A model generated the notes under the pieces. The model was not told where the DNA came from, did no database searches, and saw only the letters and a program-made list of their open reading frames with translations. From positions 1 to 64,000 of the forward strand of contig NZ_JAJBZH010000001.1 in assembly GCF_020551945.1 (NCBI RefSeq): a stretch of DNA of 64,000 nt. Direction: 5' to 3'. Of the stretch, positions 22,804-63,169 are shown piece by piece. The first letter of the stretch is position 1; every line of letters begins with the position of its first letter. A program made the position numbers and the translations under genes. The stretch comes from Cellulosimicrobium marinum (lineage in GTDB: Bacteria > Actinomycetota > Actinomycetes > Actinomycetales > Cellulomonadaceae).

Positions 22804-22977
22804 GGAGAAGTACCGCAGTCCCGCGAGGGAGAACCGCAGTGTTCCGAGGTAGAACGCTGGTGCGGTGGACCGGGGTCGGGCGGCCGCGCACGACCACCGT
22901 TCTACTTCGCGAGACTGCGGTTCTACGTCGGCCAACCGGGGTTCTCTCTCGCGGTACCGGGGTTCTCTCCTTCGCGG
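22804..22977. repeat. Intergenic palindromic repeat array (GCGAGGNAGNACCGCNGT family), copy 1
   Basis: Three units of an about 18-base word (GAAGTACCGCAGT, GCGAGGGAGAACCGCAGT, CGAGGTAGAACGCTGGT) are followed by four units in inverse orientation (ACCGTTCTACTTCGCGAG, ACTGCGGTTCTACGTCG, ACCGGGGTTCTCTCTCGCGG, ACCGGGGTTCTCTCCTTCGC). The whole array can fold on itself. It fills most of the 309-base gap between E2 and the nitrate transporter; sister arrays lie at 35317 and 60530. Confidence 0.8.
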
Positions 22978-34396: not shown

Positions 34397-35304
34397 GCAC
34401 GGAGATCCTGGCCTTCCCGTCCGGCACGCCCGCGGCACGCACCGCACCCGGGGCGGGCGGTGGGGCCGCAGGGTCGGCGGGCGCCCCGCCCGTGCTCGTC
34501 GGATGCTCCCACGGCACGAACGACCCCACCGGCCGCGCCGTGATCCGCGCGCTGCTCGACGACGTCCGCGCCGCCCGCCCCGACCTCGACGTCCGCGAGG
34601 CGTTCGTCGACGTGCAGCAGCCCGAGGTCGCCGACGTCGTCACCTCCGTCGTCGCGCCGGGTGCCGGCTCGGCGTCGGGCGGCGTGGTGCCGGGCGACGT
34701 GGTGCCGGGCGACGCCGTGGTGGTGCCGCTGCTGCTCTCGGGCGGGTTCCACGTCGGCGTCGACATCGCGGAGTCCGTCGCCGACCGCGGCCCCGGCGCC
34801 GGCCGGGCCGCCGCCGCGGCCCCCCTCGGCCCCGACGACCGCCTCGCCGACCTCCTCGCCGACCGCCTCGCCGAAGCCGGCCTGCGGCCCGGCGACGCCG
34901 TCGTGATCGCCGCCGCCGGCTCCAGCCGCCCCGGCGCCGCGCGCGACGTCGAACAGCTCGCCACCGCCCTGCGCGAGCGCGTCCCGAACGACGTGAGCGT
35001 CGGCTACGGCGCCATGGCGAAGCCGTCCGTGCCCGACGCCGTTGCCGCCGCCCGCACGTCGCTCACCGACGCCTCGGGTGAGGCGGGCGCCCCCGGCGAG
35101 CGCGCGGCGTCGGGCACGGCGGGCGAGGGCGGGCCGCGCGTCGTCGTGGCCGCGTACCTCCTCGCGCCGGGATACTTCTACGACCGCGTGCTGGAGGCGG
35201 GGGCGGACGTCGTGACGGCGCCGCTCGCCCCGGACCCTCGCCTCACGTCGATCGTCCTCGACCGCTACGCCGACGCCGCCGCGACCCTCGCCCCCGCGCC
35301 GTAG
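34393..35304 (+). CDS. Sirohydrochlorin chelatase, CbiX-like
   Basis: 303 residues, ATGA overlap. The chelatase N-motif with metal histidine is VLVGCSHGTNDPTGR; the second domain begins VVIAAAGSSRPGAARDVEQL and ends YLLAPGYFYDRVLEAGADVV. It inserts iron into sirohydrochlorin to finish siroheme for NirB. Two Gly/Ala/Pro-rich loops (about 90-105 and 235-250) lengthen it. Last gene of the operon; a palindromic repeat array follows. Confidence 0.88.
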   Translation: MSTEILAFPSGTPAARTAPGAGGGAAGSAGAPPVLVGCSHGTNDPTGRAVIRALLDDVRAARPDLDVREAFVDVQQPEVADVVTSVVAPGAGSASGGVVPGDVVPGDAVVVPLLLSGGFHVGVDIAESVADRGPGAGRAAAAAPLGPDDRLADLLADRLAEAGLRPGDAVVIAAAGSSRPGAARDVEQLATALRERVPNDVSVGYGAMAKPSVPDAVAAARTSLTDASGEAGAPGERAASGTAGEGGPRVVVAAYLLAPGYFYDRVLEAGADVVTAPLAPDPRLTSIVLDRYADAAATLAPAP

Positions 35305-35316
35305 TGGGGTAGCCCG

Positions 35317-35553
35317 GCGAGGAAGTACCGAGGTCGCGCGAGGGAGAACCGTGGTCGTGACGAGCGCACGTCGGGCGGCCGCGCCGGGTCTACCATCCGC
35401 GCCGCTCGTTCCTCGCGTTGCTCCCGCCAGACCCGCCACGACCCGGCACGGCCGCCCGACCTGAGCTCGAGCGTGGGCGCACCTCGGCGGACCTCGGTGC
35501 TACCTCGACGGACCTTGGTTCTCCCTCGCGCGGCGAGGGTTCTCGCTCGGGGT
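35317..35553. repeat. Intergenic palindromic repeat array, copy 2, with an embedded 60-bp element
   Basis: Forward units GCGAGGAAGTACCGAGGT and GCGAGGGAGAACCGTGGT, a centre of about 130 bases, then inverse units ACCTCGGTGCTACCTCG, ACCTTGGTTCTCCCTCGC and GGGTTCTCGCTCG. Same family as 22804-22977. The centre contains the separate element at 35386-35445. The array sits between two converging genes (CbiX-like ends 35304, MFS ends 35562), where it may also stop transcription. Confidence 0.78.
35386..35445 (+). repeat. 60-bp dispersed element, intergenic copy
   Basis: Starts GGGTCTACCATCCG and contains CGCTCGTTCCTCGCG and CTCCCGCCAGACCCGCCACG. A near-identical 58-bp copy lies inside the thioredoxin-NHL gene at 61916-61973; the two differ only in two small patches near the middle. 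The outer GGGTCT and AGACCC can pair. Confidence 0.85.
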
Positions 35554-35561
35554 CGGGCGGG

Positions 35562-36971
35562 TCAGGGCGTGACGAGGGGGCGGGTGCGGGGGGCCAGGAG
35601 GGCGACGCCGGCGGCGAGGAGCACGGTGACGCCGAAGCAGACGACGTACGCCGCGAGACCGAGCGACGCGTGCAGCGCCCACAGGAGGGAGCCCGTGACG
35701 GCGAGGGCGGTGGCGGCGGCGACGGCGTCGGACACCTGGAGCGCCGAGCTGTTGGCGCCCTGCTCCGCGACGGGCGACAGCTCGAGCGTGAGCACGGAGA
35801 GCGTCGGGTGCGTCATGCCCATCCCGAGGCCGGCGAACGTCCACGCGATCATCCCGACGACGGGCGGGACGGCGGTCCACGCGAGCAGCGCCGCGCCGCC
35901 GACTCCGACGGCGACGAACGTGCCCCCGAGCCGCACGTATCCCGCGTGCGCGAGGCCCCACGTGACGCGGCCGCGCAGCCACGACCCGGTCGACCAGCCG
36001 ACCGCGCCGAACGTGAGCACGGCACCGGCGAGCGAGGGCGCGAGCCCCCGCTCGTGCGACAGCAGGAGCGGGAGCAGCACCTCGGCGCCGGTGAACGCCG
36101 CCGCGACGAGACCGCGGATCGCGACGACGCTCGGCAGGCCGCGCGCGGCCCGCGTCGTCCCCGGCGGGAGGAGTCGCGGCACCGCGAGCGCGACCGCGGC
36201 GAGCGCCCCGGCGAGGAGCGCCACGAGCCCGACGCCGCGCAGCTGGCCCGCGTAGTTGAGCGCCCCGATGCCGACCGCGGCGACGACGGCCCACCCGAGC
36301 GACGCGTGGCGTGCCGACCTGTCGAGGTGCGGGGCGCCGTCGGGCACTCCCTGGCCGGTGCCGCGCGCCGCGTGCAGCCCGGGCCGCATGAGGACGAGCG
36401 CGGGGAGCGCGAGGACGGGGACGGCGAGGAACACCCACCGCCAGCCGACGTGCTCGACGACGAGCCCCGCGATCGCGGGTCCGACGATCGACGGGACCAC
36501 CCAGGCGGCGGCGAACGCCGCGAAGACACGGGGGCGGGCGTCGGCGGGGAACACGCGTGCGACGAGCACGTAGAGCGCGACGATGTACAGGCCGGTCCCG
36601 ACGCCCTGGAGCACGCGCCCGGCGACGAGGACGAGCATGTCCTGCGCGAGGCCGGCGACGAGGAGCCCGGCGAGGAACAGCCCGACGCCCGTCCACAGGG
36701 GGGTGGTGGGGCCGGCGCGGTCGGACCACCGTCCGGACGCGACCATCCCGACGACGCTCGACGCGAGCGACCCCGCGAACGCGAGCGTGTAGAGGGTGAG
36801 GCCGTCGAGCGCGACGGCGACCGTCGGCATGGCGGTGGCGACGGCGAGCGCCTCGAACGCGCCGAGGAAGACGAACGCGACCATGCCGACCAGGACGGCG
36901 CGCTGCGTCCCGGGGGCGAGCGGCACGCCGTCGTCCGTCCCGACGGTCCGCGCGCTCTGCGGTTGCGTCAT
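35562..36971 (-). CDS. MFS multidrug exporter, SoxR-linked
   Basis: 469 residues from ATG 36971 with AGGTGGAG upstream. Fourteen-segment-type MFS layout; the TM1-TM2 region FVFLGAFEALAVATAMPTV, the loop GRWSDRAG and the TM4-5 block RVLQGVGTGLYIVALYVLVA are typical of DHA2/EmrB-like drug exporters. It is divergent from soxR, with a SoxR box and a 19-base-spaced promoter in between, so redox-cycling compounds or toxic quinones are likely inducers and perhaps substrates (inference). Confidence 0.88.
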   Translation of the reverse strand: MTQPQSARTVGTDDGVPLAPGTQRAVLVGMVAFVFLGAFEALAVATAMPTVAVALDGLTLYTLAFAGSLASSVVGMVASGRWSDRAGPTTPLWTGVGLFLAGLLVAGLAQDMLVLVAGRVLQGVGTGLYIVALYVLVARVFPADARPRVFAAFAAAWVVPSIVGPAIAGLVVEHVGWRWVFLAVPVLALPALVLMRPGLHAARGTGQGVPDGAPHLDRSARHASLGWAVVAAVGIGALNYAGQLRGVGLVALLAGALAAVALAVPRLLPPGTTRAARGLPSVVAIRGLVAAAFTGAEVLLPLLLSHERGLAPSLAGAVLTFGAVGWSTGSWLRGRVTWGLAHAGYVRLGGTFVAVGVGGAALLAWTAVPPVVGMIAWTFAGLGMGMTHPTLSVLTLELSPVAEQGANSSALQVSDAVAAATALAVTGSLLWALHASLGLAAYVVCFGVTVLLAAGVALLAPRTRPLVTP

Positions 36972-60979: not shown

Positions 60980-63169
60980 GTGACCACCTCACCCCATCGC
61001 CTCCCCCGCGTCCGCGCCTCCGAGCTCGTCGGCCGCGGCTGGCTCAACACCGGCGGGCGCGACGTCACCCTCGCCGACCTGCGCGGAAAGATCGTCCTCG
61101 TCGACTTCTGGACCTTCTGCTGCATCAACTGCCTGCACGTCCTCGACGAGCTGCGCGAGCTCGAGGAAGCCCACCGGGACGAGCTGGTCATCGTCGGCGT
61201 CCACTCGCCCAAGTTCGCCCACGAGGCCGACCCCGACGCGCTCGCCGCCGCCGTCGAACGCTACGACGTCCACCACCCCGTCCTCGACGACCCCGAGCTC
61301 GTCACCTGGTCCGCGTACACCGCGCGCGCCTGGCCCACCCTCGTCGTCATCGACCCCCAGGGCTACGTCGTCGCGCAGATGGCGGGGGAGGGGCACGCGT
61401 CCGCCATCGCCGCGCTCGTCGACGAGCTCGTCGCGGAGCACGACGCCAAGGGCACGCTCCACCGCGGCGACGGCCCCTACGTCGCCCCTGCCCCGACGTC
61501 GGGCACCCTGCGCTTCCCCGCCACGGCGATCGAGCTGCCGACCGGGAACCTGCTCGTCGCCGACGCCGGCCACCACTCGCTCGCCGAGCTCCTGCCCGAC
61601 GGCGAGACCCTCGTCCGGCGCATCGGCACCGGCGAGCGCGGGCTCGTCGACGGCGCGCCCGACGCCGCCCGGTTCAACGAGCCCAACGGGCTCTGCCTCG
61701 TCCCGGACGACCTGCGCGCGACGCTCGGGTACGACGTGCTCGTCGCCGACACCGTCAACCACGCGCTGCGCGGCGTGCGCCTCGCGGACGGCGACGTGAC
61801 GACCGTCGCGGGGACCGGTCACCAGTACATGGTGGGCGCTGTGGACAACGTGCTGCCGGCGCGTACTGGTGCTGGGGACGGGGGCGGGTCCGGGACCGAG
61901 GTCGGTGGTGGCGGCGGGTCTACCATCCGGTCGCTCGTTCCTCGCGACCTCCCGCCAGACCCGCCACGACCCGCCACCACCACCGACCCCGCCCCCTCCG
62001 CGTCCATGCTCGTCCGGTCCGACGGTCCGGCCGCGAGGGTCGAGGCCGGGTCCGTTCCCGCGGCCCGGAGGCAGAAGCTGTCGTCGCCGTGGGACGTGGT
62101 GTGGTCGGGCGGCCTCGGGGTGTTCGTCGTGGCGATGGCGGGGAACCACACGCTGTGGGCGTTCGACGCGGTGGCGGGTGCGGTGCGGCTGCTCGCCGGG
62201 ACGATGAACGAAGGGCTCGAGGACGGGCCGGGGGAGACGGCGTGGTTCGCGCAGCCGTCCGGCCTCGCCGTCGCGGACGACGGGGCGATCTGGGTCGCGG
62301 ACTCCGAGACGTCCGCGCTGCGGCGGGTCGCGCCCGTGGACGGTGTCGGGGTAGAGGTGCGGACCGCCGTCGGGCAGGGGCTGTTCGACTTCGGGCACCG
62401 GGACGGGCCCGCCGCGCAGGCGCTCATGCAGCACCCGCTCGGGGTCGCGACGCTGCCCGACGGCAGCGTCGTCGTCGCGGACACCTACGACGGCGCGCTG
62501 CGGCGCTTCGTCCCCGCGCCCGGGACGGACGCCGGTGGCGAGGCGGCCGGGGGCGTCGGCGACCACACGGCCGGCACGCGCGTCGCGGGCGAGATGACGA
62601 CCCTGGCGACGGGCCTCGCGGAGCCGAGCGGCGTCGTCGTGCAGGCCGGAGCTGCCGCGGACGGGACGCCGCAGGTGCACCTGCTCGTCGTGGAGTCCGC
62701 CGCGCACCGGCTCACGCGCGTCGCCCTGCCCGCGGACCTCGCGGGCGAAGTGCTCGACGGCGGCGCCCACCGTACCCAGCGCCCCGTCACCGACGTCGAG
62801 GGCGGGCCGCTGCGCCTCGACGTGCCGTTCCTCCCGGCACCCGGGCAGAAGCTCGACGACCGGTTCGGGCCGTCCACCAGCCTGAGCGTCTCCGCGAGCC
62901 CGCCCGAGCTCCTGCTCGGCGGCGCGGGCGACGGCACGGACCTGTGGCGCGACCTCGTCGTCAACCCCGAGGTGACCGAGGGCGTGCTGCACGTGACCGC
63001 CAAGGCCGCGTCGTGCGACGTCGTGCCGCTCGGCCCCGACGGCGAGCCCGACCCCGACGTGTTCCCCGCCTGCCACCTCGCGCAGCAGGACTGGGGCGTG
63101 CCCGTGCGGGTCGTCGACGCCGGCGAGCCCGGCGAGGACCCGACGCTCACCCTCCCGCTGCGCGGCTGA
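60980..63169 (+). CDS. Thioredoxin-like / NHL-repeat protein
   Basis: 729 residues from GTG 60980. Thioredoxin-like domain 1-150 with the redox pair in FWTFCCINCLHVL (CINC), then NHL beta-propeller repeats (GNLLVADAGHHSLAELLPDG, VLVADTVNHALRGVRLADG, AVADDGAIWVADSETSALR, DGSVVVADTYDGALRRF). A C-terminal beta region follows. Residues about 292-360 are a Gly/Ser/Pro/Arg-rich insertion between blades; it is coded in part by a 58-bp dispersed element (61916-61973). No signal peptide. Confidence 0.9.
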   Translation: MTTSPHRLPRVRASELVGRGWLNTGGRDVTLADLRGKIVLVDFWTFCCINCLHVLDELRELEEAHRDELVIVGVHSPKFAHEADPDALAAAVERYDVHHPVLDDPELVTWSAYTARAWPTLVVIDPQGYVVAQMAGEGHASAIAALVDELVAEHDAKGTLHRGDGPYVAPAPTSGTLRFPATAIELPTGNLLVADAGHHSLAELLPDGETLVRRIGTGERGLVDGAPDAARFNEPNGLCLVPDDLRATLGYDVLVADTVNHALRGVRLADGDVTTVAGTGHQYMVGAVDNVLPARTGAGDGGGSGTEVGGGGGSTIRSLVPRDLPPDPPRPATTTDPAPSASMLVRSDGPAARVEAGSVPAARRQKLSSPWDVVWSGGLGVFVVAMAGNHTLWAFDAVAGAVRLLAGTMNEGLEDGPGETAWFAQPSGLAVADDGAIWVADSETSALRRVAPVDGVGVEVRTAVGQGLFDFGHRDGPAAQALMQHPLGVATLPDGSVVVADTYDGALRRFVPAPGTDAGGEAAGGVGDHTAGTRVAGEMTTLATGLAEPSGVVVQAGAAADGTPQVHLLVVESAAHRLTRVALPADLAGEVLDGGAHRTQRPVTDVEGGPLRLDVPFLPAPGQKLDDRFGPSTSLSVSASPPELLLGGAGDGTDLWRDLVVNPEVTEGVLHVTAKAASCDVVPLGPDGEPDPDVFPACHLAQQDWGVPVRVVDAGEPGEDPTLTLPLRG
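61916..61973 (+). repeat. 58-bp dispersed element, copy inside the thioredoxin-NHL gene
   Basis: Nearly identical to the intergenic element at 35386-35445, here read in frame as STIRSLVPRDLPPDPPRP. The flanks GGTCGGTGGTGGCG and CGCCACCACCGACC are inverse complements, so the whole 61898-61987 stretch can form a long hairpin in DNA or mRNA. Confidence 0.85.

Follow-up and report, generated by a model that had tools for sequence, protein, structure and literature searches.

The question raised by this locus is what kind of sequence can lie both in the gap between two genes and in frame inside a third. The window, a stretch of 64,000 nucleotides from Cellulosimicrobium marinum, holds two copies of such a sequence, which a first-pass annotation had placed at 35386 (intergenic) and at 61916 (within a thioredoxin-NHL gene) and described as a dispersed unit of 58 to 60 bp able to enter coding sequence without breaking it. 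Both copies are found at these places and the host is indeed a thioredoxin-NHL gene, but the element is larger, spanning 61900 to 61988 (copy A, in the gene) and 35370 to 35460 (copy B, between convergent genes ending at 35304 on the plus strand and at 35562 on the minus strand). The conserved unit is a folded structure and not a 58-bp repeat. We found no earlier description of the element in the open-licence literature searched.

Anatomy of the element

The features of the two copies and their surroundings are as follows.

60980-63169, + strand: host gene of copy A, thioredoxin-like domain and NHL propeller, 729 aa (Pfam NHL, Thioredoxin_8, AhpC-TSA, Redoxin)
61900-61916, + strand: outer stem P1, 5' arm, GGTCGGTGGTGGCGGCG, pairing with 61972-61988
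61917-61920, + strand: P1 closing GGTC, pairing with GACC at 61968-61971
61921-61929, + strand: conserved unpaired TACCATCCG, from aligned copies
61930-61948, + strand: inner stem P2 (GTCG/CGAC) with conserved loop CTCGTTCCTCG at 61934-61944
61949-61967, + strand: conserved unpaired CTCCCGCCAGACCCGCCAC, from aligned copies
61972-61988, + strand: outer stem P1, 3' arm
35319-35356, + strand: 21-nt repeat GAGGNAGNACCNNGGTC, two units, upstream of copy B
35370-35386 and 35444-35460, + strand: P1 arms of copy B
35387-35390 and 35440-35443, + strand: closing GGTC/GACC of copy B
35400-35404 and 35416-35420, + strand: P2 arms of copy B, with the loop at 35405-35415
35490-35527, - strand: 21-nt repeat GAGGNAGNACCNNGGTC, two units, inverted, downstream of copy B

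A 25-base probe from the conserved 3' half, allowed up to 3 mismatches, matches the window only at the two copies and never matches in 100 shuffles. The 14-base GGGTCTACCATCCG is not above chance at the same tolerance (5 window matches, shuffle mean 7.1); its two exact matches are the element copies. The inverse arms said to border the gene copy are present in both copies, where they form the outer stem P1, interrupted in the gene copy by a single C.A mismatch (61912/61976).

The consensus consists of an outer stem of variable sequence, closing GGTC/GACC, unpaired TNCCATCCG, an inner stem of 2 to 5 bp, the loop CTCGTNCCTCG and finally unpaired CTCCCGCCAGACCCGCCAC or close variants of it. The three unpaired stretches are nearly invariant, P2 is variable, and P1 is self-complementary but varies in sequence between copies. 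On the minus strand, i.e., the complement of the plus strand given here, the loops are G/A-rich (GTGGCGGGTCTGGCGGGAG, CGAGGNACGAG and CGGATGG). Across 33 aligned copies, 92.8% of 747 cells are paired versus 67.4% after shuffling, pairing falls to 41 to 48% when the partners are slid by 1 to 3 columns, and 21 of the 23 pair positions vary on both sides. The P1 closing pairs also covary between copies (GACC/GGTC, GGGC/GCCC, CGTC/GACG, AGTC/GACT and GATC/GATC). Counted strictly to the first break, P1 length has quartiles of 13, 21 and 27 bp (178 elements), and with the closing four bases included the stem has quartiles of 17.5, 26 and 29 (199 distinct elements); about 1 in 20 elements scores a stem of ≤2 bp under the length rules, partly owing to bulges.

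Several sets used here carry a selection of their own. Loci fetched with the covariance model are biased towards pairing, and in the regex-based sets the search itself imposes conserved loops. Some regex sets placed a light requirement on P1 (3 of 4 closing bases, or 1 of 3), and those used for mismatches, the cross-genus comparison and stem lengths placed none; the mismatch context table and the spacer counts derive from the set requiring 1 of 3.

Separately, we observe inverted element pairs about 230 to 390 bp apart at five loci (L097, L100, L107, L113 and L215). The 21-nt repeat GAGGNAGNACCNNGGTC flanks the intergenic copy left and right in inverted arrays and also occurs without an element, for example at 22825 to 22950; it has 12 matches in the window at up to 2 mismatches, with 3.7 expected, and arrays of this type flank many element copies in three further genomes of the genus (G002, G004 and G012).

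Copy number and distribution

The genome-wide search that the annotation had proposed as a check shows that it understated its case. In the source genome (G000; 3.83 Mb, 14 contigs), BLAST detects at least 44 places, of which 40 reach 49 bases or more; this search scored only 40 of its 101 initial candidates. With a covariance model trained on 33 copies, the same genome yields 87 matches at E ≤ 0.01, the last being a reverse-strand echo of another. All 17 Cellulosimicrobium genomes (G000 to G016) carry model matches, 12 to 85 per genome at E ≤ 0.001, as do 46 of 150 genomes in 11 of 25 genera of a family sample, these 17 included, and 30 of 396 genomes in 15 of 110 genera of an order sample. 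A phylum sample served as specificity control and yielded matches in 2 of 396 genomes, namely the source genome and one of the same order. The genus and wider searches capped the candidates scored in each genome and applied stricter filters to samples of more than 40 genomes. A chance repeat is rejected on the basis of genomic copy number, the 25-base probe against shuffles, covariation and the specificity seen in the phylum sample.

The element loops also occur in Actinomyces, Luteimicrobium, Isoptericola, Oerskovia, Antribacter and a Jatrophihabitans MAG, there on long stems of different sequence, so that loops, but not stems, are common to several genera. These cross-genus loci were fetched by loop letters only, and the genus list is a minimum. 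Of 34 such loci (33 from outside Cellulosimicrobium and a viral one), 25 fit the core pattern with equal P2 arms. In 24 of the 25 usable non-Cellulosimicrobium loci the P1 score exceeds the 95th percentile of shuffled arms, the exception being an Antribacter locus (L289). Among the nine loci that failed the core pattern, L220, L221 and possibly L219 (Microbacterium) still pair by eye, and L213 and L315 look like chance. The cross-genus structural alignment was too gapped (177 columns) and was excluded from the pair counts, and no cross-genus model was built. Two loci labelled Sphaerisporangium cinnabarinum ATCC 31213 (L225 and L244, both among the 25) hold Cellulosimicrobium-like copies, and the record name is possibly wrong.

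No element match was found in phages, and plasmids gave one partial match covering 49% of the query, further partial matches at E ≤ 1 being left out of the assessment; carriage by phages or plasmids thus has no support from these searches. Against Rfam 15, none of 17 loci matched a family above the gathering threshold (two microRNA matches over elements fell far below their gathering scores), and a known RNA family is set aside as the identity at that threshold and for those loci.

The insert in the thioredoxin-NHL gene

The element in the NHL gene lies within a linker lacking predicted structure (residues 284 to 364, pLDDT <50) between propeller strands of the AlphaFold model. This model rests on 15 sequences and has a mean pLDDT of 65.1, and the low pLDDT of the linker is no more than suggestive. 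Full-length matches to the gene occur in four genus genomes (G000, G013, G015 and G016) and in none of the remaining 13; the insert is carried by 4 of 17 genomes, absent in 12 and unresolved in one (G014). Among the 12 element-less genes, nine linkers were read directly, that of G010 separately, and those of G003 and G001 as empty partners.

The linker is 91 aa (G015) and 97 aa (G000) long in carriers versus 48 to 51 aa in nine non-carriers, which gives an insert of about 43 to 49 residues relative to element-less orthologues, not the 70 residues first claimed. At the DNA level, comparisons of carriers with empty sites give net inserts of 99 to 177 bp. The same linker holds the element in two genomes of a second genus (G038 and G072). 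G000 and G013 have their arms in common; the other carriers have different arms that self-pair over most of their length. The inserted peptide is nearly constant among carriers (S[T/A]IRSLVP[R/H]DLPPDPPRPA). We regard the NHL copy as a passenger in a linker predicted by the model to be disordered, a view that shares the modest lead of the mobile-element reading to which it belongs.

Two results would have refuted the first-pass annotation, an insert present in all orthologues and a lack of other copies, and neither was obtained, with 12 of 17 genus genomes lacking the insert and dozens of copies elsewhere.

Copies inside other genes

Residence in coding sequence is not confined to the NHL gene. 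Of 218 scored rows, 43 lie inside open frames, 26 in sense and 17 in antisense orientation; 7 of the 43 belong to the NHL gene, and 12 edge rows were set aside. The source genome contributes 15 of the coding rows, in 14 genes. Besides the NHL gene, 9 of these 14 hosts were scanned with Pfam (L141, L195, L196 and L201 were left out), and all nine have domains: a branched-chain permease, a glycosyltransferase, a GntR-aminotransferase, LigD, UvrD/PcrA, a biotin carboxylase, DNA polymerase III alpha (two in-frame rows), a P-type ATPase and an ABC transporter. These counts support the claim of a dispersed element that enters coding sequence without breaking it. Gene calls come from a custom codon-usage caller, and the absence of internal stops follows from its design. 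The context counts hold some copies twice, through overlapping loci and because G002, G015 and G016 also entered as named genomes.

In eight antisense coding rows the reading frame is the same, and the product in each case is a variant of KGVAGLAGATRGTSGADGSPS as part of a different protein. Four of these rows are from the source genome (L195, L196, L197 and L199), L228 and L285 are from Cellulosimicrobium, L234 is from Actinomyces ruminicola, and the eighth is L296. As a separate observation, one DNA polymerase III alpha gene of the source genome, within locus L193 (contig C10, 86302-91825), holds three model matches, two on the plus and one on the minus strand, and is still open.

Position relative to genes

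Outside genes, the element has a positional preference, which the annotation had missed along with the covarying stems with fixed loops and the strand asymmetry. The 163 intergenic rows comprise 63 tandem sense, 62 convergent, 36 tandem antisense and only 2 divergent rows; as a baseline, 15 of 91 gaps of ≥120 bp at the source-genome loci are divergent. In convergent gaps, 54 of 62 rows are closer to the stop of the gene that is sense to the plus strand and 8 to the other gene. From that stop to the element core the median distance is 72 nt in tandem sense and 82.5 nt in convergent rows. Both the scarcity of divergent rows (2 of 163) and the lean of convergent rows towards the sense stop (54 of 62) place the copies at gene 3' ends. 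This placement may reflect selection against upstream insertions, as has been argued for pneumococcal repeats through selective loss (PMC3049150), or a function in the 3'-UTR; it is compatible with either.

T is more frequent after the stem on the plus than on the minus strand (mean of 2.4 versus 0.7 in 12 nt), and only 3 of 199 elements have ≥6 T in these 12 nt. An intrinsic terminator is rejected as the identity of the element for lack of a T-tract after the stem. In the one window stretch scanned, 35250 to 35600, there was no T-rich terminator and no promoter-like site. Spacers ahead of the element do not generally hold a terminator hairpin of their own: over 101 of them, the longest hairpin averages 4.7, versus 4.1 after shuffling. 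At one orthologous site (L318:5181), five of six carriers have, by eye, a terminator-like hairpin upstream of the element. Nothing clear emerged with respect to replication-strand bias, which was judged by hand on part of the matches, taking position 1 as the origin, and carries no weight here.

History at single sites and probable amplification

Presence and absence vary at two orthologous sites, the NHL linker and L318:5181. At L318:5181, the element follows the same gene in six species (G000, G003, G010, G012, G013 and G016) with at least three stem types, and is lacking in eight genomes (G001, G002 and G004 to G009), two of which (G005 and G008) have a short terminator-like hairpin in its place. 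G011 and G015, with longer unread sequence, and G014, which is partial, were not counted. At L317:1544, the orthologous copies of G009 and G005 differ by two compensatory changes, and those of G002, G010 and G015 show uncompensated mismatches.

The same 93.2-bit score recurs at many sites in G002, G004, G005, G006, G007 and G012. In 19 aligned copies from G002, G004 and G012, the whole palindrome is identical, the nearest flanks are related (including the 21-nt repeats) and the outer sequence is mostly different. Some of the 19 are orthologous to each other. These identical copies probably stem from recent amplification. Independently, we note that the element also forms part of a longer repeat, about 220 bp in size (L317:6207-6435), which occurs dozens of times across G002, G004 to G009, G011, G012 and G014.

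In 48 comparisons of carriers with empty sites, the 5' arm scored above 95% of unrelated arms in 2, which is the chance level, and the 3' arm in none; the arms are therefore very probably not derived from the target sequence. Neither a target-site duplication nor a clean end could be defined, as flank motifs are weak and the empty-site alignments leave the ends unfixed.

The strand inferred to fold

A strand that is kept foldable tolerates G.U or G.T wobbles and not the reciprocal A.C mismatches. The stems are largely intact (77 internal mismatches versus 3341 pairs), and the internal single P1 mismatches on the plus strand comprise 45 A.C versus 7 G.T (178 elements), or 41 versus 7 when only unique contexts are considered (P = 6e-7, without correction for phylogeny). 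Each of the five larger context classes shows more A.C than G.T, with ratios of 12:2 in tandem sense, 14:1 in convergent and 10:1 in CDS sense rows; the excess is weak in tandem antisense (5:2) and CDS antisense (3:1). P2 mismatches on the plus strand are C.T/T.C in 22 cases and G.A/A.G in none, meaning G.A on the minus strand, an excess that is partly due to common descent of one subfamily. The non-wobble mismatches in P1 (9 C.T/T.C, 5 G.A/A.G) lean weakly to the minus strand. Control hairpins, found as plain hairpins at 42 of 221 element-free gene ends, lean the opposite way (7 G.T, 3 A.C; small numbers).

Because A.C is in excess over G.T on the plus strand, we infer that its complement, the minus strand, is likely to be the one maintained. 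Mismatch data cannot separate DNA from RNA; since the bias is independent of the direction of transcription, we lean, with limited confidence, towards single-stranded DNA as the folded form.

A proposed mobile palindrome and its rivals

The multicopy state, fixed loops with free self-complementary stems, strand asymmetry, patchy orthologous presence, preference for 3' flanks and in-frame residence are all observed directly. The reading that we favour, as somewhat more likely than not, is a dispersed, non-autonomous, MITE-like palindrome of Actinomycetales whose conserved unit is a folded single strand. In this reading, a trans-acting enzyme, not identified here, would recognise the loops of the minus strand in its folded state and copy the hairpin into new sites, the single-stranded DNA form and the insertion chemistry being inferred. 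The stems would drift, constrained only to keep pairing, and selection would purge insertions that fall in front of genes or disrupt a reading frame, leaving the copies behind genes and those that keep the frame within linkers. Y1_Tnp (PF01797), the only enzyme class searched, was found in 0 of 17 genus genomes and 1 of 150 family genomes, and mobilisation of the RAYT type is unlikely because of its absence from all 17. Several points weigh against this reading. Target-site duplications, clean ends and a mobilising enzyme are lacking so far, and phages gave no match and plasmids a partial one. Resident copies retain pairing via compensatory change, which a dead selfish copy would not need, although three genomes have uncompensated mismatches at the site concerned (L317:1544). 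The orientation, closeness to the sense stop and higher T content after the plus-strand stem hint at a role in the 3'-UTR. The P1 non-wobble mismatches support the minus strand only weakly.

This role is the serious rival. A cis-acting hairpin in the mRNA of the upstream gene could terminate, protect or process the transcript, with the fixed C-rich loops binding protein or RNA and spread being secondary. It remains possible and is favoured by the median distances of 72 and 82.5 nt, the 54 of 62 convergent rows, the ratio of tandem sense to antisense (63 versus 36), the scarcity of divergent rows (2 of 163 versus 15 of 91 gaps), the compensatory changes at a resident site (L317:1544) and the somewhat commoner T after the plus-strand stem. 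It is opposed by mismatches that favour the other strand even where the plus strand is the mRNA strand (12:2 in tandem sense, 10:1 in CDS sense), by the few control hairpins at gene 3' ends (7 G.T, 3 A.C), which lean the other way, by the missing T-tract (3 of 199) and by the 43 of 218 rows within open frames in both orientations. A multicopy family of structured small RNAs transcribed from the minus strand would account for the purine-rich loops and for mismatches that read as G.U and G.A on that strand. We consider it unlikely, however, as no promoter-like site was seen in the sole stretch scanned (35250 to 35600 of the window), the weak flank motifs show none that is evident, 17 loci lack an Rfam match at threshold and the asymmetry persists in tandem sense rows, where the minus strand is antisense.

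Two further rivals explain the stems by the way they are kept or made. Template-switch correction could keep stems perfect without selection while gene conversion fixes the loops, as the long perfect stems (77 mismatches versus 3341 pairs) might suggest; yet the loops are common across genera, beyond the reach of conversion within one genome (loop letters were the search key there), and P2 covaries too, which makes this account very improbable. In a snap-back model, the 5' arm would be target sequence and the 3' arm a copy of it made at each insertion. Most source-genome loci do have different stems, and some alignments suggested a match of the 5' arm to the empty site and a snap-back origin of the 3' arm, but the 48 comparisons (5' arm 2, 3' arm 0 in the top 5%) did not support it, and identical stems occur at many sites. 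The model is highly unlikely.

Comparison with known systems

In-frame palindromic elements have been described from Rickettsia and Wolbachia. How such elements move is not known to be settled. The Rickettsia palindromic elements (RPE) are multicopy palindromes of about 100 to 150 bp that are found between genes and in frame in conserved genes, where the peptide inserts are tolerated (PMC2229807, PMC10969869). The present element resembles them on both counts, being a multicopy palindrome of roughly 100 to 150 bp that lies in frame in conserved protein genes, but it comes from a different phylum, its stems are sequence-free with loops fixed across genera, and it has an inferable folding strand and a preference for gene 3' ends. 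SPRITE of Streptococcus pneumoniae is likewise a hairpin repeat enriched between convergent genes and near CDS 3' ends (PMC3049150); SPRITE itself is AT-rich and combines a duplex of 18 bp with a uridine-rich tract (PMC3049150), whereas the stem here is GC-rich, the T-tract is absent and copies also lie within genes.

REP/BIME sequences are short multicopy extragenic hairpins moved by RAYT (Y1) transposases. The present element is also a short multicopy hairpin, but no Y1_Tnp is present in the 17 element-bearing genus genomes, and a RAYT/REP identity is rejected for want of this transposase. ERIC, Correia and other bacterial MITEs are small, non-autonomous, foldback elements that are sometimes fused in frame (PMC2229807); they differ from the present element in that its stem sequence is not conserved and terminal inverted repeats and target duplication are not demonstrated. 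In integron attC sites, one folded strand is recognised and the stem is largely sequence-free. The likeness lies in these two features, one-strand recognition being only proposed here, and the present copies are dispersed and do not form cassette arrays. By analogy, the element would work like RPE and MITEs and is placed like SPRITE; membership in none of these groups is demonstrated, and there are no data on sequence homology to RPE.

Implications

A bolder reading holds that recognition rests almost wholly on how one strand folds and on the letters of its loops, the stems being of any self-complementary sequence, that the mover is an unidentified non-Y1 enzyme of Actinomycetales, and that insertion occurs in frame into replication and repair genes. 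Taken jointly, these claims are tentative, and we judge that the balance tips against them. A family of such elements in free-living, high-GC actinobacteria would offer culturable hosts, many copies, natural empty sites and a folding strand inferred from mismatches. The mover of such elements, and their tolerance inside enzymes, would become testable there, and the copies in the genes for DNA polymerase III alpha, UvrD/PcrA and LigD bear on the growth of linkers in core enzymes.
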